Part shown: piece after piece, positions 4,399 through 50,022 of the stretch
How the letters are laid out: every line of letters begins with the position of its first letter
How positions within the stretch are numbered: the stretch's first letter is position 1
Origin: an uncultured Aquitalea sp.
GTDB lineage: Bacteria > Pseudomonadota > Gammaproteobacteria > Burkholderiales > Chromobacteriaceae
Length of the DNA: 53,334 bases
Assembly: GCF_945957525.1 (NCBI RefSeq)
Contig: NZ_CAMFLA010000026.1
Span: 1-53,334 of the forward strand
Reading direction: 5' to 3'
Translations under genes and position numbers: made by a program
Notes under the pieces: model-generated
What the model was told of the DNA's origin: nothing
Seen by the model: only the letters and a program-made list of their open reading frames with translations
Database searches by the model: none

Positions 4399-4412
4399 CT
4401 TCGGCCAACCTT
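4399..4412 (+). repeat. Repeated 14-mer CTTCGGCCAACCTT (copy in the nar upstream region)
   Basis: A perfect 14-base copy of a word present seven times without mismatch in this window; its 10-base core TTCGGCCAAC is present 18 times counting both strands. This copy lies in non-coding DNA 129 bases before the narG start. The core may be a DNA-uptake or chromosome-organising signal. Confidence 0.75.
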
Positions 4413-4540
4413 CGGCGAATATCGGGCTGGACGGCTCGGGCATAAGCTTTCCAGCATGACAAACGGTCTGCCGCAAGCGTTGCCTTATTCTCCGGCGCGG
4501 CTTGCGGCCTTCGTCTGCAGACCCCGATACCGGAGGCAAA

Positions 4541-7500
4541 ATGAGCCACTTCCTCGACAGATTGAATTTCCTCGGCAAGGTCCGGAGCACCTTTTCCGAT
4601 GGCCACGGCGCTGTGGTCAATGAAGACCGCCAGTGGGAAAACGCCTATCGCCAGCGCTGGCAGCACGACAAGATCGTGCGCTCGACCCACGGCGTGAATT
4701 GCACCGGCTCCTGTAGCTGGAAGGTGTACGTGAAAAACGGCCTGATCACCTGGGAAACCCAGCAGACCGATTACCCGCGCACCCGCCCCGATCTGCCCAA
4801 CCACGAACCGCGCGGCTGTCCGCGCGGTGCGTCTTATAGCTGGTATGTGTATTCCGCCCAACGCGTGAAATATCCGATGATTCGCGGCCGGCTGGCCAAG
4901 CTGTGGCGCGAGGCCCGCAAGAGCATGGGCCCGGTCGAGGCTTGGGAGCACATCAGCCAGAATCCGGAAACCGCGCGCCAGTACAAGAGCAAGCGCGGGC
5001 AGGGCGGCTTTGTGCGCGCCAACTGGGACGAGGCCAATGAGATTATCGCCGCGGCCAATGCCTACACCATCAAGGAGTTCGGCCCCGACCGCGTGGTGGG
5101 TTTCTCGCCGATTCCTGCCATGTCCATGGTGTCTTACGCCGCCGGCAGCCGTTATCTGAGCCTGATTGGCGGCGTGCCGCTGTCCTTCTACGACTGGTAT
5201 TGCGATTTGCCGCCGGCCAGCCCGCAGATTTGGGGCGAGCAGACCGACGTGGCCGAATCGGCCGACTGGTACAACTCCACTTACCTGATGGTGTGGGGTT
5301 CCAATATTCCGATGACCCGTACCCCGGACGCCCACTTCTATACCGAAGTGCGTTACAAGGGCACCAAGACGGTGGCGGTATCGAGCGACTTTGGCGAAAT
5401 GGCCAAGTTCGGCGATATTTGGCTGGCGCCCAAGCAAGGCACCGACGCCGCGCTGGCCATGGCCATGGGTCATGTGATCTTCAAGGAATTCCACCTCGAC
5501 AACCCGTCGGCCTACTTCACCGACTACATTCGGCGCTACACCGACATGCCGATGCTGGTAACGCTGCGCCAGGACGGCGAGCGCTGGGTGCCGGATTACT
5601 TCCTGCGCGCCAGTCATCTGACTGGCAATCTGGGCGAGGACAATAACCCTGACTGGAAGACGCTGGTGATGGACGAGAGCAGCGGCGACTTGGTGGCACC
5701 CAATGGGTCCATCGGTTTCCGTTGGGGCCAGAGCGGCAAGTGGAACCTGGAGCACAAAAACGGCGGCGATGGTCGCGACATCCAGGCGCGTCTGAGCTTG
5801 AAGGAGGAGGCGGACGAGATTGTCGGCGTGGGCTTCCCTTACTTTGGAGCGGAGCACGACGAACTATTGACCCGCAATGTGCCGGCGCGTCGCATCGAAC
5901 TGGCTGACGGCAGCAGCGCGCTGGTGGCCACGGTGTTTGACCTGATGGCGGCTAACTACGGCATCGACCGCGGCCTGGGCGGCGGCAATGTGGCTTCCAG
6001 CTATATGGACGACGTGCCGTATACGCCAGCCTGGCAGCAAAAGCACACCGGCGTGAAGCCGGAGATGGTGATTCAGGTGGCGCGCGAGTTCGCCGACAAC
6101 GCCGACAAGACGCAGGGCAAGTCGATGGTGATCGTCGGCGCGGCGCTGAATCACTGGTATCACATGGACATGAGCTACCGCGGCATCATCAATATGCTGA
6201 TGATGTGCGGCTGTATCGGTCAGAGCGGCGGTGGCTGGTGCCACTACGTGGGTCAGGAGAAACTGCGTCCGCAAACCGGTTGGGCGCCGCTGGCCTTCGC
6301 CGGCGACTGGGTGCGCCCGGCGCGCCAGATGAACGGCACCAGCTTCTTCTACGCCCATACCAGCCAGTGGCGCCATGAAAAGCTGGGTGTGAACGAGATT
6401 CTCTGCCCGACGGCGGATGGTCGCATGGCTGGCATGTCACTGATCGACTACAACGCCAAGGCCGAGCGCATGGGCTGGCTGCCCTCCGCGCCGCAACTGA
6501 CCACCAACCCGCTGGAAGTGACAAGGTTGGCCGAAGCCGAGGGCAAGGACCCGGTGGCCTGGGCGGTGGAGAGCCTCAAGTCCGGCAAGCTGGACATGAG
6601 CTGCAACGACCCGGACAACCCGAAGAACTTCCCGCGCAACATGTTTGTGTGGCGCTCCAACATCCTGGGCAGCTCGGGCAAGGGGCACGAGTATTTCCTC
6701 AAGTACCTGCTGGGCACGCAAAACGCGGTGATGGGCTTGGAAGACGACTGCATCAAGCCGACGGAAGTGACCGTGCGTCCGGCTGCCGAAGGCAAGCTCG
6801 ACCTGTTGGTGGTGCTGGACTTCCGCATGTCCACAACCTGCCTCTATGGCGACATCGTGCTGCCTACCGCCACCTGGTACGAAAAGGACGACCTCAACAC
6901 TTCGGACATGCATCCCTTCATCCACCCCCTCTCCGAGGCGGTGCAGCCGCTGTGGCAGGCCCGCAGCGACTGGGAAATCTATAAGGGCTTCGCCCAGAAG
7001 ATTTCCGAGCTGGGCAAGGACTATCTGGGCGTGCGCAAGGACCTGGTGCTGACCCCGCTGATGCACGACACCCCGCAAGAGCTGGGTCAGCCTTTCGATC
7101 CGCGCGACTGGAAAAAGGGCGAGTGCGAGCCGGTGCCGGGCAAGACCATGCCGGCCATGACGGTGGTGGAGCGCGATTACGCCGCCGTCTACGACAAGTT
7201 CACCTCCATCGGCCCCTTGCTGGAGAAAGTGGGCAATGGCGGCAAGGGCATCGCCTGGAAAACCGGCCATGAAGTGGACCTGCTGCGCGGCATCAACCAG
7301 ACGGTCAAGGCCGGTATCGGCAAGGGTCAGCCCAAGCTGAACACCGCCATCGACGCCGCTGAGATGATTCTGACCCTGGCGCCGGAAACCAACGGTCATG
7401 TGGCCGTGAAGGCCTGGGAGGCGCTGTCCAGAGTGACGGGCCGCGACCATACCCATCTGGCCCGCCCGCGCGAGCATGATTCCATCCGCTTCCGCGACGT

Positions 7501-8289: not shown

Positions 8290-9840
8290 ATGAAAATCCG
8301 CGCCCAAATCGGCATGGTGCTCAATCTGGACAAGTGCATTGGTTGCCATACCTGCTCTGTCACCTGCAAGAACGTCTGGACCAGTCGCGACGGTATCGAA
8401 TACGCCTGGTTCAACAATGTGGAAAGCAAACCCGGCATCGGTTACCCGAAGGACTGGGAAAATCAGGAAAAATGGCAGGGCGGCTGGGTCCGCAAGCCCA
8501 ACGGCAAGCTGGAACCGCGCCAGGGCGGCAAGATGCGCATTCTCGCCAACATCTTCGCCAACCCGAACCTGCCGGCCATCGACGACTACTACGAGCCGTT
8601 CACTTTCGATTATGAACACCTGCAAAACGCGCCGGAAATGCAGACGCCGCCCACCGCGCGCCCGGTATCGGTGCTGACCGGCAAGAAGATGGACAAGATC
8701 GAATGGGGACCGAACTGGGAGGACGACCTTGGCGGCGAGTTTTCCAAGCGCGCCAAGGACGCCTTGTTCGAAGGCATCCAGAAGGATATGTACTCGGCTT
8801 TTGAAAACACTTTCCTGATGTACCTGCCGCGTTTGTGCGAGCACTGCCTCAACCCGGCTTGCGTGGCGTCCTGTCCTTCCGGCTCCATTTATAAGCGGGA
8901 AGACGACGGCATCGTGCTGATCGATCAGGACAAGTGCCGCGGCTGGCGCATGTGCGTGTCCGGCTGCCCGTACAAGAAGATTTATTACAACTGGACCACC
9001 GGCAAGGCGGAGAAGTGCATCTTCTGCTACCCGCGCATTGAAGCCGGCCAGCCTACCGTCTGCTCGGAAACCTGCGTCGGCCGCATCCGTTATCTGGGCG
9101 TGCTGCTGTACGACGCGGACCGCATCGAAGCCGCCGCCAGCGTGGAAGACCCCAAGAGCCTGTACGAGGCGCAACTGGGCGTGTTCCTGGATCCGCATGC
9201 GCCGGAGGTGTTGGCCGAAGCCCGCAAGCAGGGCATTCCGGAAGCCTGGCTGACCGCCGCGCAGAATTCGCCGGTGTACAAGATGGCCATGGAATGGAAA
9301 GTGGCGTTCCCGCTGCATCCGGAATACCGCACCCTGCCGATGGTGTGGTACATCCCGCCGCTGTCGCCCATCCAGTCGGCCATGGAAAACGGCCTGATTG
9401 GTGAAAACGGCATCATTCCGGACGTGAAAGACCTGCGCATCCCTATCCGCTATCTGGCCAACCTGCTGACCGCTGGCAAGGAAGAGCCGGTGCTCAAGGC
9501 GCTGGAAACCATGGTGGCCATGCGGCGCTACATGCGCAAGAAGAGCGTGGAAAAGGTGGTGGACGAGACCACGCTCAAGGGAACGCACCTCAAGGCCGAG
9601 CAAGTGGAAGAGATGTACCAGATCATGGCCATCGCCAATTACGAAGACCGTTTCGTGATTCCGTCCAGCCACAAGGAAATGGTGGAAAACACCTTCGACG
9701 ACAAAGCGTCCTGCGGCTTCAGCTTCGGCAACGGCTGCTCGGACGGCGTGTCCGAGCCCAGCCTGTTCGGCAAGAAGAAGGCCACCCCCATCGTGTTCCA
9801 CGACCTGCGGCGCGACCGCAAGGCCAACGCCGGCCAGTAA
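8290..9840 (+). CDS. narH: Respiratory nitrate reductase, beta subunit NarH
   Basis: A 516-residue iron-sulfur subunit that carries electrons from NarI haem to NarG. Four cysteine clusters are visible: CIGCHTCSVTC near residue 16, CEHCLNPACVASCP, CRGWRMCVSGCP (the tryptophan marks the [3Fe-4S] cluster site), and CIFCYPR...CSETCVGR. The ATG at 8290 follows AAGGAGAG; the frame is open back to 8221 through the narG end, but homology starts with MKIRAQIGMVLNLDKC. It lies 65 bases after narG. Confidence 0.97.
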   Translation: MKIRAQIGMVLNLDKCIGCHTCSVTCKNVWTSRDGIEYAWFNNVESKPGIGYPKDWENQEKWQGGWVRKPNGKLEPRQGGKMRILANIFANPNLPAIDDYYEPFTFDYEHLQNAPEMQTPPTARPVSVLTGKKMDKIEWGPNWEDDLGGEFSKRAKDALFEGIQKDMYSAFENTFLMYLPRLCEHCLNPACVASCPSGSIYKREDDGIVLIDQDKCRGWRMCVSGCPYKKIYYNWTTGKAEKCIFCYPRIEAGQPTVCSETCVGRIRYLGVLLYDADRIEAAASVEDPKSLYEAQLGVFLDPHAPEVLAEARKQGIPEAWLTAAQNSPVYKMAMEWKVAFPLHPEYRTLPMVWYIPPLSPIQSAMENGLIGENGIIPDVKDLRIPIRYLANLLTAGKEEPVLKALETMVAMRRYMRKKSVEKVVDETTLKGTHLKAEQVEEMYQIMAIANYEDRFVIPSSHKEMVENTFDDKASCGFSFGNGCSDGVSEPSLFGKKKATPIVFHDLRRDRKANAGQ

Positions 9841-10512: not shown

Positions 10513-10526
10513 CTTCGGCCAACCTT
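10513..10526 (+). repeat. Repeated 14-mer CTTCGGCCAACCTT between narJ and narI
   Basis: A perfect copy, 13 bases after the narJ stop codon and inside the narGHJI operon. It lengthens the otherwise tight narJ-narI junction to 57 bases. It cannot be a transcription stop here, since narI must be co-expressed. Confidence 0.75.
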
Positions 10527-15281: not shown

Positions 15282-15295
15282 CTTCGGCCAACCTT
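15282..15295 (+). repeat. Repeated 14-mer CTTCGGCCAACCTT upstream of the AraC gene
   Basis: A perfect copy in the 197-base gap between the AraC gene and the cytochrome b561 remnant, preceded by a GC-rich stretch (GGGCGCGCAGCCCGCG). The rest of the gap shows nothing recognisable. Confidence 0.75.
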
Positions 15296-15876: not shown

Positions 15877-16806
15877 TCACGGCGTTATGTCTGCGTCTTC
15901 GGCCAACCTCGGGCGCAGCAACGATTCCAGCCAGCGCATGAAAAGCTGAACCCGGCGCGGTTGGTGTCTGCGCTGGGCGTAGATCAGCGATACCGGCATC
16001 GGCGCCGCGCGCCAACGGGGCAAGATGGTCTCCAGCGCGCCGGCTTGCAGCGAGGCGGCCACGCCGGGGAAGGGCACTTGAATGATGCCGAGCCCGGCCA
16101 GGCAGGCGGCGTAGTAGGCGTCCGCGCTATTGACGGTGAGCGCGCCGCTCATCGGCAGAAAGCGTTTCTCGCTTGGGGTGTCGGGGTCGAGATATTCAAA
16201 GCCGGGGTCGCGGTTGCCGAAGCTGGAGACGTAATGCACTAGCCGGTGCGCGTGCAGGTCCTCTAGCGAACGGGGTTGGCCGAAGCGGGCGAGATAGGCG
16301 GGACTGGCGCAGTTGACCATCTGGTAATGCCCCAGCGGCCGGGCGATGTAGCCTGCGTCGCCCAGTTGGCCCACCCGCACCACGCAATCGAAGCCTTCGC
16401 GCACCAGATCGACGCGCCGGTCGGTGCTGGAGAGCTCAACTTCCAGCGCCGGATGCTCGGCAAGAAATTCCGCTAAACGGGGCAGCACCACATCGCGGGC
16501 GATGGCGCTGGGCATGTCCACCCGCAAACGGCCACGCAGGGCCGCGCCGTCGTCGCGAAACAGGTTTTGCGCATCTTCGAAATCCGCCAGCAAGTCCTTG
16601 CAGCGCTCGTAATAAGCCTGGCCGTCTTGCGTCAGTGCTACCCGGCGGGTGGTGCGATGCAAGAGCCGTGTTTCCAGCTCCGCTTCCAGTTGTTGCACGG
16701 CCACCGAAACGCTGGCTTTGGGCAGCGCCAGATTGGCGGCGGCCTGGGTGAAGCTGGCCTGCTCGGCGACTTCCACGAAGATTTGCATGGCTTCCAGCGT
16801 TCTCAT
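15877..16806 (-). CDS. LysR-family regulator of the adjacent SDR
   Basis: A 309-residue LysR-type regulator: N-terminal winged helix (MQIFVEVAEQASFTQAAANLALPKASVSVAVQQLEAEL) and a two-lobed effector domain from about residue 90. It is in the CrgA/AaeR-like group judged by LLHRTTRRVALTQDG and RVDLVREGFDCVVRVG. It is divergent from an SDR gene 132 bases away, with a perfect GTTCG-N7-CGAAC site between them. The last codons overlap a near-perfect copy of the repeated word (15897-15910, one mismatch). The effector is unknown. Confidence 0.9.
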   Translation of the reverse strand: MRTLEAMQIFVEVAEQASFTQAAANLALPKASVSVAVQQLEAELETRLLHRTTRRVALTQDGQAYYERCKDLLADFEDAQNLFRDDGAALRGRLRVDMPSAIARDVVLPRLAEFLAEHPALEVELSSTDRRVDLVREGFDCVVRVGQLGDAGYIARPLGHYQMVNCASPAYLARFGQPRSLEDLHAHRLVHYVSSFGNRDPGFEYLDPDTPSEKRFLPMSGALTVNSADAYYAACLAGLGIIQVPFPGVAASLQAGALETILPRWRAAPMPVSLIYAQRRHQPRRVQLFMRWLESLLRPRLAEDADITP

Positions 16807-16938: not shown

Positions 16939-17715
16939 ATGAATTCGCAAACCTCTCCCGCTTCCCGTATCGCACTGGTCACCGGCGGCAGCCGCGGGCT
17001 GGGCCGCAACGCCGCACTGCATCTGGCTCGCAAGGGGGTGGATGTGGTGCTGACCTATCGCAGTCAGCGCGAAGAGGCGGAGCGCGTTGCCGCCGAGATA
17101 CGCGCGCTGGGCCGTCGCGCCGTGGTTTTGCCGCTGGATGTGGCCGACGCCGCTTCGTTTGCCGGGTTTGCCGAAGCACTGGCCGCGGCGTTGCGCTCCG
17201 AGTGGCAGCGCGACAGCTTTGATTACCTGCTGAACAATGCTGGTATCGGCATTCATGCGGCTTTTGCCGATACCACCGAGGCGCAGTTCGACCAGTTGGT
17301 GAACATCCATCTGAAGGGGGTGTTCTTCCTCACGCAACGCCTGCTGCCCTTGTTGGCGGACGGTGGTGGCATCCTCAATCTGTCCAGCGGGCTGACGCGC
17401 TTTTCCCTGCCGGGTTATGCCGCCTATGCCGCCATGAAGGGCGCGGTGGAGGTGCTTAGCCGTTATCTGGCCCGCGAGCTGGGCGCGCGCGGCATTCGCG
17501 TCAATACCCTGGCGCCGGGCGCCATCGAGACTGATTTCGGCGGCGGCGCGGTGCGCGACAACGCCCAGTTGAATGCCTTTGTCGCCAGCCAGACGGCGCT
17601 GGGTCGAGCTGGTCTGCCGGACGATATCGGCGCTGTGGTCGCCAGTCTGTTGAGCGAAGACTGCGGCTGGGTCAATGGACAAAGAGTGGAAGCCTCGGGC
17701 GGCATGTTCCTCTAA
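16939..17715 (+). CDS. Short-chain dehydrogenase/reductase (FabG-like)
   Basis: A 258-residue classical SDR that oxidises or reduces an alcohol/ketone with NAD(P)H. The cofactor motif TGGSRGLG lies near residue 15, then NNAG, the catalytic Ser in NLSSGLT and the YAAMK active-site pair, and the C-terminal GAIETDF and VNGQRVEASGGM. An Arg following the first glycines (SRG) suggests NADPH preference. The start at 16939 follows AGGAG. Most likely controlled by the divergent LysR. Substrate cannot be told from sequence. Confidence 0.88.
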   Translation: MNSQTSPASRIALVTGGSRGLGRNAALHLARKGVDVVLTYRSQREEAERVAAEIRALGRRAVVLPLDVADAASFAGFAEALAAALRSEWQRDSFDYLLNNAGIGIHAAFADTTEAQFDQLVNIHLKGVFFLTQRLLPLLADGGGILNLSSGLTRFSLPGYAAYAAMKGAVEVLSRYLARELGARGIRVNTLAPGAIETDFGGGAVRDNAQLNAFVASQTALGRAGLPDDIGAVVASLLSEDCGWVNGQRVEASGGMFL

Positions 17716-19594: not shown

Positions 19595-21537
19595 TGCGTT
19601 TGCCGAACAACAGTGTCCTGCACGGCCCGCTGGGCCTGCGCCTCAGCGCCAAGATCGTTGGCGTGCTGATGGCTTTCCTGTTACTGGCGCTGACCGCTAT
19701 CGGTTCCACCTTGTGGCTGTCCTGGCAGTTGGAGGGCGGTGCCGCCGCCATCAACGACGCCGGCAGCCTGCGCATGCGCATCACGCGCTTGTCGCTGGAT
19801 TTGCGCCGGCTCTCGCAAACCGGCGTCTCGCCCGACGAAATCCGCGGCGATGCGGAATCCTACGAGACCACCCTCAAACTGTTGCGCCGCGGTGACCCGG
19901 CCCGGCCCTTGCTGGTGCCACGCGAGCAGACCATTCTTGCCGACCTGGCCGAAGTGGAGCAGGACTGGGCGCGTCGTCTCAAGCCCAGCGTTGACCGGGT
20001 GCTGGCGCAGGGCGGCTCAGACGCCGGCCTGCGCACCGAAGTCGAGCGCTTCACCCGCAGCGCTACCAGCCATGTGATGGTCATCAACCGCTTTGTCCAG
20101 CACATGGAGGACTACAACGCGCGCAATACCGAATACCTGCGCATGTGCCAGTTGCTGCTGGCCGCCATGGCCGTGGTGGCGACGGTGGGGCTGGTGTATC
20201 TGATGCTGCTGCTGGTGTTGCGCCCTTTGGACAAGCTGCATCAGGGCATCGCCAGGTTGGCCGAAGGCGATTACAGCGCGCAGGTACCGGTAGAGACCGA
20301 CGACGAGTTCGGCCAAGTGTCCGAAGGCTTCAACCTGATGGCCAAGCGCCTGTCCGAGGTGCACGGCACGCTGGAAGAACGGGTGCGACAGAAAACCGCT
20401 TCCTTGCAGCAAAAGAACCAGGAGCTGGCGCTGCTGTACGAAATCGCCACCTTTCTCAACCAGGCGCAAACCATGGAAGCGCTGTGCAAGGGCTTTATCA
20501 ATCGGGTGATGCAGGCTTTCGATGGCGACGGCGGCGCGGTGCGGCTGGTGGATCAGGGGCAGTCGCTTATCTACGTGGTGGCCGGCGACGGCATGCCCGA
20601 CAGCCTGCTGCACAGCGAGGGCTGCATGAAGCTGGGCGATTGCCTGTGCGGCGAAACCGCCGTCAGCGCCACTACCCGCATCGAGGACACCACCCGCTAC
20701 CCGGCGCGCGAATGCGGCCGCGAGGGCTTCCGCATCATCAGCGCCTTTCCCATCAGCACGCAAAACCGCACGCTGGGCCTGTTCAACCTGCATTTCCGTC
20801 AGGCGCGGGTCATGACGCCGCAGCAGACGCGCATGCTGGAGATGCTGGGCCAACACCTGGCGGTAGCCATAGAAAACCAGCGTTTGGCCGCCAAGGAGCG
20901 CGAGCTGGCCATTCTGGAAGAACGCAATCTGGTGGCGCAGGGTCTGCACGACAGCATCGCCCAGGGCCTGTCCTTCCTCAATCTGCAAACCCAGATCATG
21001 CGTCAGGCGGTGGATTGCGGCGACAAGTCGCTGGTGGATGACACGCTGGGCCTGTTCGAGGCCGGGGTGAAAGAGAGTTACGACGATGTGCGCGAGCTGC
21101 TCAACAACTTCCGCTCCCGCTTGTCGGAAAGCCTGCCGCAAGCAGTGGCGACGGTGGTGGACAAATTCCGCCGCCAGAGCGGCATCAAGGTGGAGCTGCG
21201 CTCCGAGGGGCTCAGCCTGCCGATGATGCCTGAACAGCAGCTGCAGATACTGTTCATCTTGCAAGAAGCATTGTCCAATGTGCGCAAGCATGCGGGCGCG
21301 GATTACGTGATGGTGCGCCTGTCGGACGATGGCGAGGTGTTCTCCATGGTGATCATGGACGACGGCCAGGGTTTTGACGCGGATGAGGTGCGCCAGCGCG
21401 GCGACGGCCATTTCGGCCTGTCCATCATGCAGGAGCGCGCCAGCCGGGCCGGGCTGCAATTGAGCATTGAACCGACGCCGGGCGAGGGCACGATTGTCTC
21501 GCTGCTGTTGCCGCGTGCCAGCAGGCAAGCCGCCTGA
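19594..21537 (+). CDS. narX: Nitrate/nitrite sensor histidine kinase NarX
   Basis: A 647-residue membrane sensor that detects nitrate in the periplasm and phosphorylates NarL. Order of parts: first membrane helix (about residues 20-43), the nitrate-binding P-box INDAGSLRMRITRLS (53-67), a helical periplasmic domain, second helix (about 183-205), HAMP linker (PLDKLHQGIARLAEGDYSAQV), a GAF-like domain with Cys residues (GCMKLGDCLCGE, RECGREG), then the HisKA_3 helix with the phosphorylated His in QGLHDSIAQGLSF and a C-terminal ATPase (EALSNVRKHA, DDGQGFD, GHFGLSIMQERA). Its start overlaps the carbonic anhydrase stop. narL follows after 110 bases. Confidence 0.95.
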   Translation: MRLPNNSVLHGPLGLRLSAKIVGVLMAFLLLALTAIGSTLWLSWQLEGGAAAINDAGSLRMRITRLSLDLRRLSQTGVSPDEIRGDAESYETTLKLLRRGDPARPLLVPREQTILADLAEVEQDWARRLKPSVDRVLAQGGSDAGLRTEVERFTRSATSHVMVINRFVQHMEDYNARNTEYLRMCQLLLAAMAVVATVGLVYLMLLLVLRPLDKLHQGIARLAEGDYSAQVPVETDDEFGQVSEGFNLMAKRLSEVHGTLEERVRQKTASLQQKNQELALLYEIATFLNQAQTMEALCKGFINRVMQAFDGDGGAVRLVDQGQSLIYVVAGDGMPDSLLHSEGCMKLGDCLCGETAVSATTRIEDTTRYPARECGREGFRIISAFPISTQNRTLGLFNLHFRQARVMTPQQTRMLEMLGQHLAVAIENQRLAAKERELAILEERNLVAQGLHDSIAQGLSFLNLQTQIMRQAVDCGDKSLVDDTLGLFEAGVKESYDDVRELLNNFRSRLSESLPQAVATVVDKFRRQSGIKVELRSEGLSLPMMPEQQLQILFILQEALSNVRKHAGADYVMVRLSDDGEVFSMVIMDDGQGFDADEVRQRGDGHFGLSIMQERASRAGLQLSIEPTPGEGTIVSLLLPRASRQAA

Positions 21538-30663: not shown

Positions 30664-31823
30664 GGCAGCCTGCCTTCTACGGCGGCGCGGAAGATGGCGC
30701 TGTAATCCGCCGCGCTGAGGCTGACCGGGTTGCCGCCGTCGCTCGGATCGGCCTTGGCCATTACGCCGATTTCGTCGGCGCGGGCGGCGGTGATGCCGAT
30801 GTCAGCCAGCGTGTGCGGAATGGCCAGATCCTGCCGCAGCTGGAGAATCCAGCTGAGGAAACCGTCGAAGTCCGCTTGGGCCAGGCCGATGTAGCGGGCC
30901 GCTGCGGCGATGCGCTCGCTGACCGCCTCGCGATTGCGCACCAGCACATAGGGCAGCAGGATGGCGTTGGCCAGACCGTGATGGGTATCGAATACCGCGC
31001 CGATGGGATGCGCCAGCGCATGCACGCCGCCCAAGCCTTTCTGGAAAGCGGTGGCGCCCATCATGGAGGCAGCCAGCATGTGCGAGCGCGCTTCGATATT
31101 GCCGCCTTCGGCGTAAGCGGCGGGCAGCCAGTCGTGCACCAGCTTCATGCCTTCCAGCGCCACGCCCTGGGCCATGGGGTGATAGTAGGGTGAGCAGTAG
31201 GCTTCTAGATTGTGCACAAAGGCGTCGATGCCGGTGGCGGCAGTCAGGTGCGGGGGCAGGCCGGCGGTCAGTTCCGGGTCGGCCAGCACCAGGCGCGGCA
31301 GCATGGAGGGGTGGAAGATGATCACTTTGCGGTGGTCTTCTTCATCGATGATCAGCGAGGCGCGGCCCACTTCGGAGCCGGTGCCGGAGGTAGTGGGTAC
31401 GGCGATGGTGGGCGCCACGCCGGCCACGTTAACGCGCAGCCAGTTGTCGCCCACATCTTCAAAGTCCCACAGCGGGCGATCCTGCCCCACCATCAGGGCG
31501 ATGGCTTTGCCAACGTCCAGCGCGCTGCCGCCGCCCACGGCGATCACGCCGTCGTGCTTGCCTTCCTTATAAGCGGCCATGCCGGCGTAGACATCGCGGC
31601 CCACCGGGTTGGGGCGCATGTCGCTGAAGACATGGGCTTCAAGGTTGGCCGAAGCCAGGTAATCAAGCAGGCGCGCCACCAGCGGAAGCTTGGCGAGGCC
31701 AGGATCGGTGACGATCAGTGGCCGGCGCATGCCCAGTTGCTGGCACAGGGCGGGCAGTTCACTGGCGCGGCCGGCGCCGAAGCGGATGCTGGTCGGATAA
31801 TTCCAGTTGCCTTGCAGTTGCAT
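30660..31823 (-). CDS. Iron-containing (group III) alcohol dehydrogenase
   Basis: A 387-residue NAD(P)-dependent enzyme. The nucleotide-binding segment GGGSALDVGKAIAL, the PTTSGTGSEV motif, and the metal-binding Asp/His residues (TGIDAFVHNLEAY, GGVHALAHPIGA, FDTHHG) are all present. Within the puu operon it could reduce an aldehyde intermediate (gamma-aminobutyraldehyde or succinate semialdehyde) or oxidise an amino alcohol such as ethanolamine-type substrates. This gene is not part of the E. coli puu set, which makes the pathway branch here interesting. Three bases separate it from the aldehyde dehydrogenase. Confidence 0.9.
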   Translation of the reverse strand: MQLQGNWNYPTSIRFGAGRASELPALCQQLGMRRPLIVTDPGLAKLPLVARLLDYLASANLEAHVFSDMRPNPVGRDVYAGMAAYKEGKHDGVIAVGGGSALDVGKAIALMVGQDRPLWDFEDVGDNWLRVNVAGVAPTIAVPTTSGTGSEVGRASLIIDEEDHRKVIIFHPSMLPRLVLADPELTAGLPPHLTAATGIDAFVHNLEAYCSPYYHPMAQGVALEGMKLVHDWLPAAYAEGGNIEARSHMLAASMMGATAFQKGLGGVHALAHPIGAVFDTHHGLANAILLPYVLVRNREAVSERIAAAARYIGLAQADFDGFLSWILQLRQDLAIPHTLADIGITAARADEIGVMAKADPSDGGNPVSLSAADYSAIFRAAVEGRLP

Positions 31824-31826: not shown

Positions 31827-33215
31827 TTACCCCTTGAGATGGAAGGATTTGACGCGGGTGAGTTGGTGGTAGCCCAGCACGGACAGCGATACGCCGCGGC
31901 CGGTGTCCTTGACGCCTGTCCAGGCCAGCGCCGGGTCGAGGTAGTCGCAGCGGTTCATGAAGACGGTGCCGGTGGCGATATCGTTGCCCAGCCGGAGTGC
32001 GGCCGCGCGGTCTGCCGTCCACAGCGAGGCGGTCAGGCCGTAGGGGCTGTCGTTCATCAGCGCCAGCGCTTGTTCGTCCGACTCCACCGGCATGATGCCG
32101 ATCACCGGGCCAAAGCTTTCATCGCGCATTACGCTCATGCCGTGATTCACGTTCACCAGCACCTGGGGCGCAAGATAGGCGGTGCCTTCTTGATCGGCGG
32201 CGAAGTGGCCGGGCGGAATCAGCGCTTTGGCGCCGGCGGACACCGCGTCGGCAATCTGTTTGCGCACAAAAGCCGCGGCCGAGGCGCGCACCATGGGGCC
32301 GAGGTTGGTGTTGGCGTCCAGCGGGTTGCCGAAGCGATAGCCGCGGGTAAGATCGACAAAGCCGTCGACAAACGCGTTGTACAGGCTGCTGTGCACATAG
32401 ATGCGCTCGATGCCGCAGCAAGACTGCCCGGAGTTGAAGAAAGCGCCGTCCACCAGGTTTTCCACCGCGCTGGCCAGGTCGGCGTCGGCGCGGACATAGG
32501 CCGGGTCCTTGCCGCCCAGCTCCAGACCCACGCCGATGAAGCGCTCGCTGGCGGCGGCTTGCTGCACGGCGCGGCCACCGGCGACGGAGCCGGTGAAGGC
32601 GACAAAATCAATCTGCGGCGCAGCCACCAGTTTCAGGGTGTCCGCATGGCCAAGATGAAGGGTCTGGAATACGCCGGCAGGCAGCCCGGCGGCATCGAAG
32701 GCCTGCTGGAACAGCTCGGCCACCAGCGGGGTTTGCGAGCTGTGTTTGAGAATTACCGTATTGCCGGCCACCAGCGCCGGCACGATGGTGTTGATGGCGG
32801 TGAGGAAAGGGTAATTCCACGGGGCCAGCACCAGTACGGTGCCCAGCGGCTCGCGGCGCAGAAAGCGCTCGAAGCCTTCCTTAGGGGCGGGTCGTACGTC
32901 GGCGAGCCCTTCTTCCGCAATCGAAATCATGTAGCGCGCGCGCTCTTCCAGGCCGCGCACCTCGCCCGGCGACTGGCTGATGGGACGGCCGATCTGGCGG
33001 GTAATGGCTTCGGCGCAGCGGTCCTTGTTGGCCACCAGCCAGTCTACGGCCTTGCCTACCAGCGCCTTGCGTTCGGCCAACGTCGCATTGCGCCAGCCGC
33101 GTTGCGCCACCACGGCGCTGTCCAGCGCGGCGGAGACGGCGGAGGCCGTGGAGTAGGGGCGCTCCAGCAGGATGGCGCCGTCAACGGGGGAGACTACGGA
33201 ATAGGATGTGCTCAT
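31827..33215 (-). CDS. Aldehyde dehydrogenase (PuuC role)
   Basis: A 462-residue NAD(P)-dependent aldehyde dehydrogenase. Signs: APWNYPF cofactor loop, FTGSVAGGRAV, general base Glu in LELGGKDPAYV, nucleophile Cys in FFNSGQSCCGIERIYV, and the late ESFGPVIGI. In this operon it probably oxidises gamma-glutamyl-gamma-aminobutyraldehyde, the PuuB product, to gamma-glutamyl-GABA. It is shorter than E. coli PuuC (about 495 residues) and closer to succinate-semialdehyde-type enzymes, so I give no gene symbol. It begins directly after the puuA stop codon. It contains copies of the repeated core at 33072. Confidence 0.9.
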   Translation of the reverse strand: MSTSYSVVSPVDGAILLERPYSTASAVSAALDSAVVAQRGWRNATLAERKALVGKAVDWLVANKDRCAEAITRQIGRPISQSPGEVRGLEERARYMISIAEEGLADVRPAPKEGFERFLRREPLGTVLVLAPWNYPFLTAINTIVPALVAGNTVILKHSSQTPLVAELFQQAFDAAGLPAGVFQTLHLGHADTLKLVAAPQIDFVAFTGSVAGGRAVQQAAASERFIGVGLELGGKDPAYVRADADLASAVENLVDGAFFNSGQSCCGIERIYVHSSLYNAFVDGFVDLTRGYRFGNPLDANTNLGPMVRASAAAFVRKQIADAVSAGAKALIPPGHFAADQEGTAYLAPQVLVNVNHGMSVMRDESFGPVIGIMPVESDEQALALMNDSPYGLTASLWTADRAAALRLGNDIATGTVFMNRCDYLDPALAWTGVKDTGRGVSLSVLGYHQLTRVKSFHLKG

Positions 33216-34842: not shown

Positions 34843-35718
34843 GTGAGCAACAATCGGTCGATTGCGGAAGAAATCCGCGTCCTTTTCGAAACCCTCACCC
34901 CCACCGAACGCAAAGTGGGACGCGTCTTGCTGGCCAACTACCCGGTAGCCGGTCTGGAGACGGTGGCGCAACTGGCCTTGCGGGCGGACGTCAGCGGCCC
35001 CACGGTGCTGAGACTGGTCAGCAAGCTGGGTTTCGACAGTTACACCGGCTTTCAGACCGCGCTGCGCGATGAGCTGGAGGTGCGCTTGCAGTCGCCGCTG
35101 GTGCGGCACGATCCGGGTCAGCTCAAGGGCGAAAACGACTTTCTGGTCAGTTACGCGTCGCGCATCAGCCAGCTGATGCAGGAAACCATCGCGCATCTGC
35201 CGCGTGCGGAATTCGATGGCGTGGTGGAGTTGCTGGGGGATCGCAAGCAGCGCGTCTGGTTGCTGGGCGGGCGGCTGACCGAGCCGCTGGCGGCCTACTT
35301 GGGCCACCACCTCAAGGTGGTGCGGCCGGAGGTGAACCATCTGCGCGGCGTGCCGGCCAGTTGGGCGGATTCGCTGGTGGACATGGGCAAGCACGATGTG
35401 CTGGTGGTATTCGATATCCGCCGCTATTGGGAAGGCGCGCTGCAAGTGGCGGAGATGGCCGCGCAGCGCAAGGTGAATGTGCTGTTGTTTACCGATCAGT
35501 GGCTGTCGCCCGTGTCGCGGGTGGCGCGGCACACGCTGGCGGCGCATACCGCCGGCCCGTCCGGCTGGGACAGCAATACCCCGCTAATGATGCTGGTAGA
35601 TGCGGTGATTGCCGGCGTCAATACGCGTCGCTGGGGCGAGATCAGCGACCGGCTGCAAGAAGTGGAAGCGATGCGGGCCCGGTTGGGAGAAGGTTTGCCG
35701 AAAGAGGGCGGCGGGTGA
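34843..35718 (+). CDS. MurR/RpiR-family regulator of the putrescine operon
   Basis: A 291-residue regulator: N-terminal RpiR helix-turn-helix (LTPTERKVGRVLLANYPVAGLETVAQLALRADVSGPTVLRLVSKLGFDSYTGFQ) and a C-terminal sugar-isomerase-like SIS domain (VWLLGGRLTEPLAAYLGHHL...DVLVVFDIRRYWEGALQVAEMA). SIS domains normally bind phosphosugars, but RpiR proteins beside amine catabolism genes are also known. The start is a GTG at 34843 with TGGAGA seven bases before; the open frame from 34771 lacks this. Divergent from puuA, which it most likely represses. Confidence 0.9.
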   Translation: MSNNRSIAEEIRVLFETLTPTERKVGRVLLANYPVAGLETVAQLALRADVSGPTVLRLVSKLGFDSYTGFQTALRDELEVRLQSPLVRHDPGQLKGENDFLVSYASRISQLMQETIAHLPRAEFDGVVELLGDRKQRVWLLGGRLTEPLAAYLGHHLKVVRPEVNHLRGVPASWADSLVDMGKHDVLVVFDIRRYWEGALQVAEMAAQRKVNVLLFTDQWLSPVSRVARHTLAAHTAGPSGWDSNTPLMMLVDAVIAGVNTRRWGEISDRLQEVEAMRARLGEGLPKEGGG

Positions 35719-36289: not shown

Positions 36290-36303
36290 CTTCGGCCAAC
36301 CTT
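36290..36303 (+). repeat. Repeated 14-mer CTTCGGCCAACCTT after yajQ
   Basis: A perfect copy seven bases behind the yajQ stop codon and just before its terminator. Confidence 0.75.
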
Positions 36304-38316: not shown

Positions 38317-39474
38317 ATGAAACAGCCATTCAAGGTCATGGTGGTCATGGTCGCCTTCGGATTTTTTTCCAAGCCGACGGTTGCGGCAGAGTCAGACCAG
38401 CAGCGCATTGCCGACATCATCACACCGCTGATGCGGCAGCATGACATACCCGGCATGGCGGTGGCGGTAGTACAAGGCGATAAACGCTTTGTGCTGACAT
38501 ACGGCCTTGCCGCTGCCGGCGAAGGCAAGCCGGTTAATCGCGACACGCTGTTCGAGTTGGGTTCGATCAGCAAATTGTTTACCGGCTTGTTGGGCGCCTA
38601 CGCACATGAAACCGGCAAGCTGGACTGGGATGCGCCCGCCAGCCGTTACTGGCCAGCCTTACAGGGCAGCGCCATGGACAAGATCATGATGAAACAACTG
38701 GCGACATACAGCGCAGGTGGCTTGCCCTTGCAGTTTCCTGATCGGGTAAAGAACAAGGAAGCCGATATCGCCGACTATTACCGTCAGTGGAAACCTTCCT
38801 ACCCGGCCGGTGAGCAGCGACTGTATTCCAATCCCAGTATTGGCCTGTTCGGCTTTCTCACCGCAAAAAGTCTGGGCATGCCCTTCGACAAGGCCGTAGA
38901 GCAGGTTCTGTTGTCCAAGCTGGACATGCGCAACACGCGGATTGTGCTGCAAGCCGGGGACAAGGCCCGCTATGCTTGGGGGCATGCGGAGGGCGGACAG
39001 CGGGTGCGGGTGATGCCGGGGCCGCTTGATTCTGAAGCCTACGGCATCAAATCCAGCGGCGCGGATATGCTCAAGCTGCTTTCGGCCAACATTGACGGCG
39101 TGAAAGACCCAGCATTGCAAGCGGCATTGCAGGATACCCAGCGCGTGCGCTACCAGGCAGGCGATTTGCGTCAGGGGCTGGGTTGGGAAATCTATCGTTA
39201 CCCTGTGGTCTTGCCTGCCTTGTTGGGCGGCAACAGCAACAACATGGCTTTCAATCCACACAAAATCGAATGGCTGAGCAAGCCGGAGCGGCTGCCAGCC
39301 GGTCTTTACAACAAAACGGGTTCCACCCGAGGCTTTGGTGCTTATGTGTTGATGGTGCCTGAGCAGAAAATCGGCATCGCCATGCTGGCCAATCGCAACT
39401 ATCCGAACTCAGAGCGCGTCGCGGCCGGCTACCGTATCCTGTCCGTCTTGCTGGCTTCGCCAGCCAAGGGCTAG
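38317..39474 (+). CDS. ampC: Class C (AmpC-type) beta-lactamase
   Basis: A 385-residue periplasmic serine hydrolase that should open the beta-lactam ring of cephalosporins. A signal peptide (about residues 1-24, KPTVAA-E) precedes the mature enzyme. The three active-site elements are complete: Ser83-Ile-Ser-Lys86, Tyr170-Ser-Asn172, and Lys333-Thr-Gly. Length and the KTGSTRGFGAYVLMVP region fit AmpC rather than esterases or DD-peptidases of the same fold. The start at 38317 has AAAGGA; about 49 upstream in-frame codons are leader sequence. No ampR regulator is adjacent, so expression may be constitutive or controlled from elsewhere. Its 241-base leader is AT-richer than its neighbours. Confidence 0.92.
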   Translation: MKQPFKVMVVMVAFGFFSKPTVAAESDQQRIADIITPLMRQHDIPGMAVAVVQGDKRFVLTYGLAAAGEGKPVNRDTLFELGSISKLFTGLLGAYAHETGKLDWDAPASRYWPALQGSAMDKIMMKQLATYSAGGLPLQFPDRVKNKEADIADYYRQWKPSYPAGEQRLYSNPSIGLFGFLTAKSLGMPFDKAVEQVLLSKLDMRNTRIVLQAGDKARYAWGHAEGGQRVRVMPGPLDSEAYGIKSSGADMLKLLSANIDGVKDPALQAALQDTQRVRYQAGDLRQGLGWEIYRYPVVLPALLGGNSNNMAFNPHKIEWLSKPERLPAGLYNKTGSTRGFGAYVLMVPEQKIGIAMLANRNYPNSERVAAGYRILSVLLASPAKG

Positions 39475-39542: not shown

Positions 39543-43160
<3,618 letters not shown>

Positions 43161-44200: not shown

Positions 44201-45106
44201 ATGACTTACTCTCGCCTGCATCAGCGTTTCCCATACTTGCCTGATCTGTTGTTGCTGCTGGTTGCCATGGTGTGGGGCAGCAGCTACGGCATGGCCAAGC
44301 TCGCGTTGGCGTTTTACCCGGTGCTGGGCATGCTGGCCTTGCGCTTCGGTCTCAGTTTCATCCTGTTGCTGCCCGCCTTGCGCGCGCTGCGCGAAGCGGC
44401 GGTGCGCCGCGCCACGCTTGGCGCTTGCTTGCCGCTGGGCTTGGGTCTGCTGGCGATTTTTCTCTGCGAAACCTACGGCGTGGCGCATACCAGCGCCGCC
44501 AATGCTGCTTTCCTCATCAGCCTGTGCCTGGTGCTGACGCCGTTTGCCGAATGGTGGTTGTTGCGGCTCAGGCCCAGCGGCGAAGCGGTACTGATGGCCG
44601 GGGTGTCTCTGTCTGGCGCTTGGTTGCTTAGTGGCGGCGCATCATTGCAGCTGAATCTGGGCGATGGCCTGATGCTGCTGGCAGCCGTGCTGCGGGCCCT
44701 GATGGTATGCATGACGCGCAAACTCACTGCCGGCAAGCCGGTGGCCACGCTGGCGATGACCGGCTTGCAAGGCTTGGTGATCTGCGTGGGCTGTCTGTTG
44801 CTGGCACAGCTGCAGGGCGGTTTGCCGCCGCTGCCGGCCAATCCGGCGTTTTGGGGCAATACCCTGTATCTGGTGGTGTTTTGCACTATCTTCGCCTTTT
44901 TTGCCATGAACTACGCCCTGCGGCACAGCAGCGCCACCCGCGTGGCCTTGCTGACCGGCAGCGAGCCGGTATTCGGCGCTTTGTTTGCCGTGCTGTGGCT
45001 GGGCGAATCGCTGTCGGTTGCCAGCTGGGTGGGTGGACTGCTGATGGTGGCGGCCAGCCTGTGGACGGTGCGGCCGCGCCGGCAAGCCGCGCTGGCGGAG
45101 GCCTGA
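44201..45106 (+). CDS. DMT-family (EamA) metabolite exporter
   Basis: A 301-residue inner-membrane protein with ten helices in two EamA repeats: LLLLLVAMVWGSSYGMAKLAL and the ETYGVAHTSAANAAFLISL region in the first, ALRHSSATRVALLTGSEPVFGALFAVLWLGESLSVASWVGGLLM in the second. Family members export amino acids and related compounds. Its divergent pairing with a LysR gene is a common arrangement for regulated exporters. The ribosome-binding site is weak. Confidence 0.9.
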   Translation: MTYSRLHQRFPYLPDLLLLLVAMVWGSSYGMAKLALAFYPVLGMLALRFGLSFILLLPALRALREAAVRRATLGACLPLGLGLLAIFLCETYGVAHTSAANAAFLISLCLVLTPFAEWWLLRLRPSGEAVLMAGVSLSGAWLLSGGASLQLNLGDGLMLLAAVLRALMVCMTRKLTAGKPVATLAMTGLQGLVICVGCLLLAQLQGGLPPLPANPAFWGNTLYLVVFCTIFAFFAMNYALRHSSATRVALLTGSEPVFGALFAVLWLGESLSVASWVGGLLMVAASLWTVRPRRQAALAEA

Positions 45107-45222: not shown

Positions 45223-45804
45223 ATGCAAATCGATACTCTTCTGGCGCGCCGGGTGCGCGAGCTGCGCAAGCGGCAGGGCTTGTCGCTGGACGGCCTTGCC
45301 CAGCTGAGCGGCGTCAGCCGCTCCATGATCTCCCTGATAGAGCGGGAGGAAACCAGCCCCACTGCGGCTGTGCTCAATAAGCTGGCCGACGCGCTGGGCG
45401 TGCCGCTGGCCTCACTGTTTGCCGAAGAGCCGGACGACGCGCCGGCCTCGCCGCTCAACCCTGCCAGCCTGCAGGCAGTATGGCGCGACCCGGCGTCCGG
45501 TTACTCGCGCCGGCATCTTTCCCCCGGCGCATTTCCCTCTCCGCTGGAATTGGCGGAAGTAAGCTTTCCAGCCGGCCAGAGCGTGACGTTCGACAACCCG
45601 CTGCGCAGCATGACCACGCACCAGCAACTGTGGCTGATGGAAGGCGAGATGGTAATCGACCTGGATGGCGAATGCTGGCGACTGCACGCCGGCGATTGCC
45701 TGGCCATGGTGCTGGGGCAGCGCATCGTTTTTCACAATCCGGGCGCAGTGGCGGCGCGATATCTGCTGGCGCTGACTACCGTGCCTGCAACAAGGAGAAA
45801 TTGA
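45223..45804 (+). CDS. XRE-cupin transcriptional regulator
   Basis: A 193-residue regulator: an N-terminal XRE helix-turn-helix (LARRVRELRKRQGLSLDGLAQLSGVSRSMISLIEREETSPTAAVLNKLADALGVPLASLF) and a C-terminal cupin barrel (about residues 115-185, HQQLWLMEGEMVIDLDGECWRLHAGDCLAM) that could bind a small ligand. The ATG at 45223 has GGTGGA. Its stop overlaps the start of the acetyltransferase gene (TGATG), so the two are a coupled pair and it likely governs that gene. Confidence 0.92.
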   Translation: MQIDTLLARRVRELRKRQGLSLDGLAQLSGVSRSMISLIEREETSPTAAVLNKLADALGVPLASLFAEEPDDAPASPLNPASLQAVWRDPASGYSRRHLSPGAFPSPLELAEVSFPAGQSVTFDNPLRSMTTHQQLWLMEGEMVIDLDGECWRLHAGDCLAMVLGQRIVFHNPGAVAARYLLALTTVPATRRN

Positions 45805-46438: not shown

Positions 46439-46750
46439 ATGCAGCCTTATGCAAGTTTTGCCGAGTTTTATCCCTTTTATCTGTCGCAACACCGGCACCC
46501 GGTTTGCCGAAGCCTGCACCTTGCCGGGACCTTGCTCAGTCTCGCCCTGGCGCTGTTTGCGCTGTGGCAGGGCGCTTGGTGGCTGATCGCGGCGGCGCTG
46601 GCGCAGGGCTATGCCTTTGCCTGGGTGGGGCATTTCGTGTTCGAGCATAATCGCCCGGCCACTTTTCGTTACCCCTTGTACAGTTTCATGGGCGATTGGG
46701 TGATGGCTTGGCAAATCGTCACCGGCAGCCTGCCCGCCGCACAGGAGTGA
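46439..46750 (+). CDS. DUF962/Mpo1-like membrane protein
   Basis: A 103-residue protein: opening FAEFYPFYLSQHRHPVCRSLHLAGTLLS, two hydrophobic helices, GYAFAWVGHFVFEHNRPATFRYPLYSFMGDWVM. The repeated conserved histidines (H-RHP, HLAGT, GHFVFEHN) are the signature of DUF962; the yeast homologue Mpo1 is an iron-dependent dioxygenase of 2-hydroxy fatty acids. The bacterial role is unproven. The start at 46439 has GGAGGG. Confidence 0.87.
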   Translation: MQPYASFAEFYPFYLSQHRHPVCRSLHLAGTLLSLALALFALWQGAWWLIAAALAQGYAFAWVGHFVFEHNRPATFRYPLYSFMGDWVMAWQIVTGSLPAAQE

Positions 46751-48924: not shown

Positions 48925-49038
48925 TTGCAGTCTCCCTTACATTGCAGCGTCGTTGAATAAGACGCGCCTAGTATTTGGTAATCCTCACAACGCTGAAAAG
49001 CGATAAAATTGACTCAAGCAATCGAAAAATTTAATACC

Positions 49039-49950
49039 ATGCACAAGCGACTTCCCCCCATGCAGAGCTTGCTGGCCTTTGAGGCCGCAGCGCGACACGG
49101 CAATTTTTCTCGCGCCGCTGAAGAGCTGGCCTTGACGCAATCGGCTGTCAGTCATCAGATCCAGTTGCTGGAAGATTGGGTGCGACAGCCGCTGTTTCGG
49201 CGCATTGGTCGCGGCGTGGCGCTTACCGGAGCGGGAGAGGTGTTTCTGCAAACGGCAAGAGATACCCTGCGGCTGATCAGCGAGGGGCGAGACCGTATTG
49301 AGCCGTATCGCAATATGAATTCCGTCCTGATCTGGTGCGGGCGGGATTTTGCGGCGGGCGCGCTCATGCAGTGGTTGCCGGGCCTGCACGCGGCGTTTCC
49401 GGATATTGAGGTGTGGGTGGTAACAGGCAGTGAACTGAGGGAATTCGATCGCATCGATGTGGACCTCATCGTATCGTCCCGGCCCATCCGGCATGACGAT
49501 GTCTCGGTCTCGCCACTTTTGCAGGACCGTGAGCTGGCGGTGTGCAGCCCGACGTTGCATGCGCGACTGTCCCGGATGGCGTTTCCGCAATGTCTGTCCG
49601 CCGCCGCCTTGCTACATGACGAGCGGAGGCCGGATTGGGCGCCATGGTTGCCAGCGCTCAGGCAACAGGGTTTGCCGCTGCGCAGGGGAGCCACCTTCGA
49701 AGACGCTGCGCTGTTGATGGCGGCGGCGGAACGAGGGCTGGGCATTGCCAGGCTGTCGGCTTCACTGGTTGCCGGCGCGATCGAGGCCGGTAGCCTGGCG
49801 CATTTGAGCCAGGTGCCGACGGAGGTTGGCGATACCCTCTGGCTGATGAAACCCAAAGGCGCGGCGCGCACTCCTGTTGCCGAGGCGGTGTGGCGCTGGT
49901 TGCTGGAGCGGGGGCGGCTGTTTGACGAGATGGCATCGCCGAGTGCGTGA
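49039..49950 (+). CDS. LysR-family regulator (GcvA-like) of the agmatinase operon
   Basis: A 303-residue LysR regulator from the ATG at 49039; a TTG at 49009 in the same frame is an alternative, neither with a strong ribosome-binding site. The winged helix MQSLLAFEAAARHGNFSRAAEELALTQSAVSHQIQLLEDWV and PLFRRIGRGVALTGAGE place it near the GcvA/AmpR group. Divergent from speB with a 114-base gap; presumably controls speB and the binding protein. Confidence 0.9.
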   Translation: MHKRLPPMQSLLAFEAAARHGNFSRAAEELALTQSAVSHQIQLLEDWVRQPLFRRIGRGVALTGAGEVFLQTARDTLRLISEGRDRIEPYRNMNSVLIWCGRDFAAGALMQWLPGLHAAFPDIEVWVVTGSELREFDRIDVDLIVSSRPIRHDDVSVSPLLQDRELAVCSPTLHARLSRMAFPQCLSAAALLHDERRPDWAPWLPALRQQGLPLRRGATFEDAALLMAAAERGLGIARLSASLVAGAIEAGSLAHLSQVPTEVGDTLWLMKPKGAARTPVAEAVWRWLLERGRLFDEMASPSA

Positions 49951-50008
49951 GCGCCGGCCTCCTTGTTGCTGACGGCCGAGCGAGGGGTGGAATGCCATTC
50001 TTGCACGG

Positions 50009-50022
50009 CTTCGGCCAACCTT
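50009..50022 (+). repeat. Repeated 14-mer CTTCGGCCAACCTT after the LysR gene
   Basis: A perfect copy 59 bases behind the LysR stop codon in non-coding DNA. Confidence 0.75.

Follow-up and report, generated by a model that had tools for sequence, protein, structure and literature searches.

The question raised by this locus is why one ten-base word, TTCGGCCAAC, recurs so often in a 53,334-nucleotide stretch of DNA from an uncultured Aquitalea sp. (family Chromobacteriaceae; contig NZ_CAMFLA010000026.1), the whole of which was analyzed and is referred to below as the window. An earlier note on this DNA, made from the letters alone, had proposed several explanations, among them a DNA uptake sequence (DUS), and this idea proved to be the best supported: the word is in strong excess, exists in dialects, has an AG prefix and forms inverted pairs; homologous places in related genomes differ from it by substitutions, as if its copies had arisen in place; genes for ComP and ComEC are present; and loops of the minor pilin ComP co-vary with the word. 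We consider it very probable (roughly 0.88) that the word is the DUS of a DUS/ComP self-DNA uptake system with a dialect branch of its own.

An exact search of both strands revealed 19 copies of TTCGGCCAAC in the window, whereas dinucleotide shuffles predict 0.18 and the largest of 100 shuffles contained 2. The strong excess reported in the earlier note thus stands, with 0.18 in place of its approximately 0.1 expected copies; all 18 of its starts are right, and a nineteenth copy (positions 23232–23241, minus strand) had been overlooked. Seven of the 19 cores lie outside called genes, where non-genic DNA makes up 12.7% of the window. The perfect 14-mer CTTCGGCCAACCTT occurs at the seven sites reported previously, five of which are indeed outside called genes (4399, 10513, 15282, 36290 and 50009) and two inside, at 6523 in narG and at 31641 in a Fe-alcohol dehydrogenase gene. 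A second word that the note had not mentioned, TTCGGCAAAC on one strand and GTTTGCCGAA on the opposite strand, is one letter off TTCGGCCAAC and occurs 10 times in the window, with 0.13 copies expected.

The excess extends over the whole source genome (35 contigs, 4,045,770 bases), where TTCGGCCAAC occurs 698 + 670 = 1,368 times on the two strands, well above the background of 12 + 9 = 21 copies given by the reversed control word; the second word has 306 + 310 copies and its control 4 + 4. Composition and codon use were analyzed in a sample of 453,334 bases, consisting of the window and 20 further stretches. GTTGGCCGAA, the opposite strand of TTCGGCCAAC, occurs 163 times in this sample, whereas a third-order Markov model predicts 1.8 copies. 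Of the 30 words that differ from it by a single letter, GTTTGCCGAA alone is strongly enriched (75 copies; expectation, 1.7); each of the remaining 29 has 0–15 copies, the top four standing at 1.6–7 times expectation. A simple codon-based caller predicted 409 genes in the sample (85% coding), and these contain 124 copies of GTTGGCCGAA and 59 of the second word, as compared with a mean of 9.4 (maximum, 18) and 5.9 (maximum, 13), respectively, in 200 synonymous-codon shuffles. In view of these shuffles, and of nine genomes of the same genus that show no excess, we rejected codon or codon-pair bias. The intergenic excess suspected from the window was borne out, since the 39 copies of the first word and 16 of the second that lie outside genes correspond to 1.8 and 1.6 times the genic density. 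Within genes the first word is found 83 times in sense and 41 times in antisense orientation; the commonest reading frame is x-TTG-GCC-GAA (Leu-Ala-Glu), and the second word gives Phe-Ala-Glu.

A single mobile element was likewise rejected as the source of the copies, because they are spread across the window and across 320 kb of contig C1 and their flanks differ. The 320-kb stretch contains 168 copies of the two words together, and gaps shorter than 300 bp between them are rare (6.0% versus 14.6% expected; none of 5,000 random sets was so low), while the overall evenness of spacing on this stretch was not significant (coefficient of variation, P = 0.09). The largest word-free gap of the stretch (14.5 kb; G000:C1:34214-48761; GC content of 55% versus 62%) carries ribosomal protein operons with tuf, and the notion that it might be a mobile island was wrong. 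Further ribosomal genes and tuf are found in another large gap, and two more contain apparently ordinary transporter and metabolic genes, gene names in these gaps having been assigned by eye from protein starts.

On the opposite strand the unit takes the form (A)(G)GTTkGCCGAA, that is, a sharp 10-mer behind a semi-conserved AG prefix. In the source genome the bases preferred just before GTTGGCCGAA are A (0.59) and G (0.44), that just after it is G (0.77), and there is little information beyond approximately 3 bases on either side. In all seven sampled word-bearing genomes, A and G were the most frequent bases at the two 5′ positions preceding the main word, as in AG-DUS, AGGCCGTCTGAA. PMC3630211 describes Neisseriaceae DUS in the same terms: a 10-mer with two semi-conserved 5′ bases and a GAA 3′ end, present in hundreds to thousands of copies on both strands, with dialects between genera. 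The dialects known from that source are AT-DUS, AG-DUS, AG-mucDUS, AG-kingDUS, AG-simDUS, king3DUS, eikDUS and wadDUS. AGGTTGGCCGAA aligns in register with AG-simDUS (AGGCTGCCTGAA) and AG-mucDUS (AGGTCGTCTGAA), matching 9 of 12 letters in each case. A match of at least 9 of 12 was reached by 0.73% of random 62%-GC 12-mers and by 0.82% of shuffles (six dialects, both orientations, five offsets), so that the alignment gives moderate support to homology without proving it. The two word forms of the source genome recall Simonsiella, and the main word, at approximately 340 copies per Mb, lies below the figure for N. meningitidis (approximately 1,900 copies per genome). The uptake signal sequence of Pasteurellaceae is also a short self-recognition word for DNA uptake with a high copy number; its sequence is different, and its receptor is another pilin (ComN has been proposed; PMC12616744).

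We surveyed 61 genomes of the Chromobacteriaceae (family f1), comprising Aquitalea (g1; A. magnusonii, A. palustris, A. aquatica and the source genome), Vogesella (g2; V. margarita), Chromobacterium (g3), Craterilacuibacter (g136), Crenobacter oryzisoli (g138), Paludibacterium (g139; P. purpuratum, P. yongneupense), Pseudogulbenkiania (g141; P. ferrooxidans 2002, P. subflava) and the genera g4, g137 and g140. Dialects were first found by de novo word counts and then counted genome-wide. GTTGGCCGAA reaches 183–2,168 copies in 8 genomes of five genera, namely the source genome, two of g138, one of g4, one of g140 and three of g141; the assembly with 183 copies is 84% complete, and P. ferrooxidans 2002 has 1,104. 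The remaining 53 genomes have 8–78 copies, the highest counts being those of two g137 genomes (77 and 78) and two of Paludibacterium (62 and 45), and the nine other Aquitalea genomes contain 11–36 each (the 11-copy assembly is 61% complete). A second dialect, GTTGGCCGCA, is present in 1,871–2,895 copies in all 13 Vogesella genomes and in 8–58 copies in the other 48, and a third, GTTGGCCGAG, in 1,940 and 1,590 copies in both g137 genomes and in 13–165 in the other 59. Altogether, 23 of the 61 genomes (8 + 13 + 2) are word-positive, and related dialects thus exist in other genera of the family. They differ from each other at positions +4, +9 and +10, the change from A to C at +9 in Vogesella being the same as that between kingDUS and king3DUS (PMC3630211). 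Among 300 genomes sampled from the order, GTTGGCCGAA stands out only in the source genome and in G283, both Chromobacteriaceae. A count of the 8-mer GTTGGCCG across 399 genomes of the order showed a marked excess, at least 4.8-fold over the reversed control and amounting to hundreds or thousands of copies, for the source genome, g2 and g4 alone; elsewhere it reaches at most approximately 3.3-fold (G234), except for G121 with 30 copies versus 0. When applied to a genome of family f44 as a positive control, this type of word count recovered AG-DUS, with GCCGTCTGAA present 126 times in 80 kb. It gave nothing similar in Chromobacterium G318 (280 kb), in Aquitalea G301 (300 kb), in four Paludibacterium genomes (60–121 kb each) or in Craterilacuibacter (74 kb), although a rare or strongly degenerate word could have escaped in the smaller samples.

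Some minor patterns were seen in the word-negative genera. In Paludibacterium G333 and G336 both GTTGGCCGAA (62 and 45 copies versus 13 and 11 for the controls) and GTTGGCCGAG (92 and 85 versus 21 and 17) are slightly in excess, perhaps as relics of an uptake word that has been lost. In the nine Aquitalea genomes GTTTGCCGAA occurs 25–66 times versus 4–22 for the controls, with GTTGGCCGAA near background, which may reflect a remnant or composition. In Aquitalea G301 a repeat contains TTTCTGAGCT, GTCCGGCAGT and similar words in approximately 27 copies; it is apparently clustered, being absent from the top list when counting was done by 1.5-kb bins. In the 280 kb of Chromobacterium G318, AATGCTCATGT, GCTCATGTACC and similar words are found in 11–13 bins, far more rarely than uptake words, and are perhaps a small dispersed element. 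Craterilacuibacter has a tandem array of the GGGAGTA type.

In Neisseria the receptor of DUS is the minor pilin ComP. The Pfam family ComP_DUS (PF16732) alone was rejected as a marker for ComP because it matches other pilins and was positive in 61 of 61 genomes, but the ST.WP.LP stretch known from Neisseria ComP is present in one group of its matches. The best matches in the Protein Data Bank (PDB) of an eight-member Chromobacteriaceae profile built for ComP were 2nba (N. subflava ComP, 5.9e-18), 2m3k (N. meningitidis, 9.7e-17) and 5hz7; these matches span the globular domain, whereas other pilins scored no better than 6.7e-11, most of them via the N-terminal part. The ComP of the source genome is encoded at G000:C9:75150-75602, behind another long open frame. 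On its own it matched 2m3k at 2.8e-10 (43 bits over 85 residues), the next other pilin following at 5.4e-5, and it scored 41 bits against PF16732 (cut-off, 27.3); for one Vogesella and one Chromobacterium protein the top PDB match was also a ComP, with a smaller margin over other pilins. After addition of the ComP of the source genome, the profile gave best matches of 82–234 bits in 57 of the 61 genomes. In all four Craterilacuibacter genomes, which also lack the word, the best match was only 62–67 bits, like ordinary pilins; an HflX tree placed this genus as sister of Vogesella, while HflX trees left the order of the genera and the place of the source genome without resolution. A profile score of approximately 100–120 bits was rejected as a sole marker because it is unspecific: the match in the AG-DUS genome of family f44 is a pilin without the WP.LP stretch, and those in two other families, for the part of the candidates that was scored, are apparently ordinary pilins. 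Each of the 23 word-bearing genomes has a gene for a relative of ComP, and a ComEC match without stops was found in the source genome and in 59 of the 61 genomes.

The loops of ComP co-vary with the word. We aligned the ComPs of all 23 word-positive genomes and of 27 among the 34 word-negative genomes in which one is present (9 of 9 Aquitalea, 13 of 19 Chromobacterium, 5 of 6 Paludibacterium); G332 was omitted from the loop count for a flagged TGA in its match, which may be a normal stop. In the loop after the first strand, NxDxG (x at the second position being T, A or V; N[TAV]DxG) was present in 21 of the 23 word-positive and in none of the 27 word-negative ComPs, the exceptions being G351 (NTDPD) and G338 (NDKRD). 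In the α1–β1 loop, two columns before the ST.WP.LP-like stretch, K was found in 21 of 23 word-positive ComPs (the source genome has T and G338 has R) and in none of the 27 others. In Neisseria ComP such loops make contact with DUS (PMC12061091), and from the alignment the second loop, that after the first strand, would be β1–β2. The Chromobacteriaceae proteins resemble Neisseria ComP (2nba, 2m3k, 5hz7; PF16732) in having a prepilin helix, a globular domain and ST.WP.LP in the α1–β1 loop, and differ from it in that an NTDxG-type loop replaces the Neisseria sequence. In the ComP tree the protein of the source genome groups with those of Aquitalea (88/83; a long-branch warning applies), suggesting inheritance of this protein and a change of the loops in Aquitalea. 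The ComP of G338 (C3, approximately 1519214-1519633) also has N at the position of the prepilin-motif glutamate and an unusual second loop, in an assembly that is 80% complete with 7% contamination.

The arrangement of the copies was analyzed in seven word-bearing genomes. Pairs less than 60 bp apart numbered 3 in the source genome, 6 in G331, 2 in G338, 2 in P. ferrooxidans, 0 in G283, 7 in Vogesella G350 and 8 in G328 (g137), and 27 of these 28 pairs were inverted (p = 2e-7). Six of the eight pairs in G328 have TTTTTT one base behind and look like intrinsic terminators, and inverted pairs of Neisseria DUS are described as terminators in PMC3630211. To trace the origin of the copies we used 67 alignments of sites of the source genome to sampled stretches of other genomes, most of the 238 sites having none. 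At 32 homologous places in word-negative genera we found 25 ungapped near-matches with 2–6 substitutions, 6 gapped places and 1 exact word, so that most copies look like substitutions in place rather than insertions. In word-positive genera the exact word or the dialect of the genome concerned was present at 7 of 35 places, including two where GTTGGCCGAA in the source genome stands opposite GTTGGCCGAG in G328; this sharing of sites is suggestive.

From these observations we infer binding of the word by ComP, word-dependent uptake, and spread of the word by uptake, along the following lines. The 12-mer AG-GTTGGCCGAA, with GTTTGCCGAA as a second form, would act as the uptake signal. ComP, a type IV minor pilin at the cell surface, would bind DNA that bears the word, the pilus would draw the bound DNA inward, ComEC would transfer it to the cytoplasm, and homologous recombination would insert it into the chromosome. 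Copies created by point mutation would spread and persist because alleles with the word are taken up more often, and the genome would gradually fill with the word at tolerated places, while relatives with another dialect would become poor DNA donors.

Several observations weigh against this interpretation. First, the core at positions +6 to +8 reads CCG in each of the three dialects as well as in the second word, with G at +5, whereas CTG is common to all eight described dialects (PMC3630211) and is reported to be essential in Neisseria. The caveat of the earlier note that the CTG core is absent was right, yet the reverse-complement 12-mer lines up with known dialects. Of five sequence features of DUS, the excess, the 10-mer with 5′ bases, the inverted pairs at terminators and the dialects are all observed here, and the CTG core is not. 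The word is thus classed as a DUS-type system with a new core and not as a further member of the described set, where it fails for want of CTG; a system acting in the manner of DUS is nonetheless well supported. The prefix of the second word in the source genome shows no clear preference for A (A and G tie at 0.31 at the first place), and only 3 close inverted pairs were seen in 453 kb of that genome, all of them lacking a T run. Second, ComP genes are kept in word-negative Aquitalea, Chromobacterium and Paludibacterium, so that the presence of ComP alone does not predict the word. The looser loop motif N[TAV]D is found in 22 of 23 word-positive ComPs and also in 1 of 27 word-negative ones; G338 has 1,851 copies of the word yet lacks the loop motif, and the ComP of the source genome lacks the K. 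The motifs were picked post hoc from the same alignment, and three label changes suffice on the ComP tree, which carries long-branch warnings and contains few independent word-positive lineages; the independent sample is thus small. Neisseria ComP has two disulfide bridges, in the β1–DD loop and in β4–β5 (PMC12061091), whereas Chromobacteriaceae ComPs have only two invariant cysteines and not four, and hence at most one conserved bridge. Finally, site sharing at 7 of 35 places was not clearly more frequent than at 1 of 32 (p = 0.056).

One alternative is a variant of the DUS interpretation and compatible with it, namely that the system is now fossil in this strain, past uptake having ceased. 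The divergence of its ComP (a long branch, and T for K in the α1–β1 loop) and the nine sister genomes without the word would fit such a history. However, its NTDAG loop is intact, and the 163 exact copies are accompanied by few decay products (111 copies of the other 29 variants, of which approximately 51 are expected by composition), so we regard a fossil system as unlikely. A recombination or chromosome-organization signal (a Chi-like RecBCD site, or a site for FtsK (KOPS) or a nucleoid protein), which would also be short and strongly over-represented genome-wide in coding and intergenic DNA, is less likely by a clear step. Chi and KOPS are strongly strand-biased, whereas the strand assigned by GC skew in the seven pooled genomes, skipping stretches with a skew below 0.01, was leading for 277 copies and lagging for 227 (55:45; p = 0.03). 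The bias with respect to replication, for which the earlier note had suggested a check, is thus weak at most, and not the strong one expected of an oriented motif of this type; genic copies, moreover, favour the sense strand. Inverted pairs that form terminators in g137, dialect shifts within the family that accompany loop changes of an uptake pilin, and nine genomes of the same genus that do without the word also speak against such a signal; a difference from Chi sites is that the dialects here go with a pilin. Still more improbable is a methyltransferase or restriction-modification target, kept because it is methylated. The word does contain GGCC, and HIP1 of cyanobacteria is a highly repeated word linked to methylases, but a non-palindromic ten-position block with semi-conserved flanks and dialect shifts at +4, +9 and +10 is a poor fit: usual methylase recognition sites are unlike such a block, and restriction sites are usually avoided. 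Neither of these two alternatives raised in the earlier note is favoured. A terminator or mobile repeat family (REP/MITE-like), to which the inverted pairs with T runs in g137 and the raised intergenic density might point, is the least probable, because most copies of the first word are single and genic (124 of 163), the flanks are nearly uninformative beyond approximately 3 bases, and 25 of 32 homologous word-negative places are ungapped with 2–6 substitutions. The earlier note's statement that the word is no terminator holds for single copies, such as the lone copy in the nar operon (10514), but not for the inverted pairs of g137.

As to the history of the DUS/ComP system, we lean towards an origin before the Neisseriaceae, in the common ancestor of Neisseriaceae and Chromobacteriaceae, CTG being only the Neisseriaceae version; Chromobacterium, most Aquitalea, Paludibacterium and Craterilacuibacter would then have lost the system, with their ComP loops changed or ComP gone. 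We take Lutiella nitroferrum 2002 to be the same strain as P. ferrooxidans 2002. Frye et al. 2013 (PMC3630211) found no obvious DUS in the five Chromobacteriaceae genomes then known (four and Laribacter) and no ComP there by BLAST; one of these genomes, that of P. ferrooxidans 2002, contains the 1,104 copies counted above. Table S1D of that paper (over-represented 10-mers in strains without obvious DUS) may list the word without a DUS label. None of the four 10-mers was found as a whole word in the full-text literature searched, which lay mostly outside subscription journals and preprints, and no report of such an uptake word in Vogesella, Pseudogulbenkiania, Aquitalea, Crenobacter or Chromobacteriaceae was found by titles and the starts of abstracts (including PMC10715097). 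If the DUS interpretation is right, the word is an uptake password for own-kind DNA in a family where none had been recognized before. DUS with ComP is among the best-studied cases of bacterial self-DNA recognition, described from Neisseriaceae, and a second dialect branch with another core would supply natural pairs of ComP and word from which the recognition code might be read, in a family that has apparently lost the system several times. The CCG branch would test whether CTG is truly essential and may push the origin of the system back, and addition of the word to donor DNA could help to transform Vogesella and Pseudogulbenkiania.

Within the window, the first copy of the word lies at 2962–2971 (plus strand), followed by several in and around the nar operon: a perfect 14-mer in the intergenic region upstream of narG (4399–4412, plus), another within narG (6523–6536, minus), a word in the second gene of the operon (8290–9840) at 9210–9219 (minus), and a perfect 14-mer between the third nar gene and narI (10513–10526, plus). 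Further perfect 14-mers are intergenic at 15282–15295 (plus), within the Fe-alcohol dehydrogenase gene at 31641–31654 (minus), intergenic directly behind a DUF520 gene at 36290–36303 (plus), and intergenic approximately 59 bases behind a lysR-type gene (49009–49950) at 50009–50022 (plus). The 10-mer alone occurs within genes at 15898–15907 (plus; 21 bases before the gene end), 16275–16284 (minus), 20256–20265 (minus), 24024–24033 (minus; 20 bases before the gene end), 24501–24510 (minus), 33072–33081 (plus) and 39081–39090 (plus), the overlooked copy at 23232–23241 being within fliD, and between genes at 28025–28034 (plus; a stop codon lies 4 bases earlier) and 29911–29920 (minus). The second word is found on the plus strand at 36–45 and 42675–42684 and on the minus strand at 17166–17175, 19598–19607, 24893–24902, 35693–35702, 39548–39557, 44542–44551, 45417–45426 and 46502–46511, the last of these outside called genes. 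In addition, ARAGORN called a 92-nt tRNA-Val (gac) at 23487–23578, antisense within fliD (22443–23816), which is probably a false positive.

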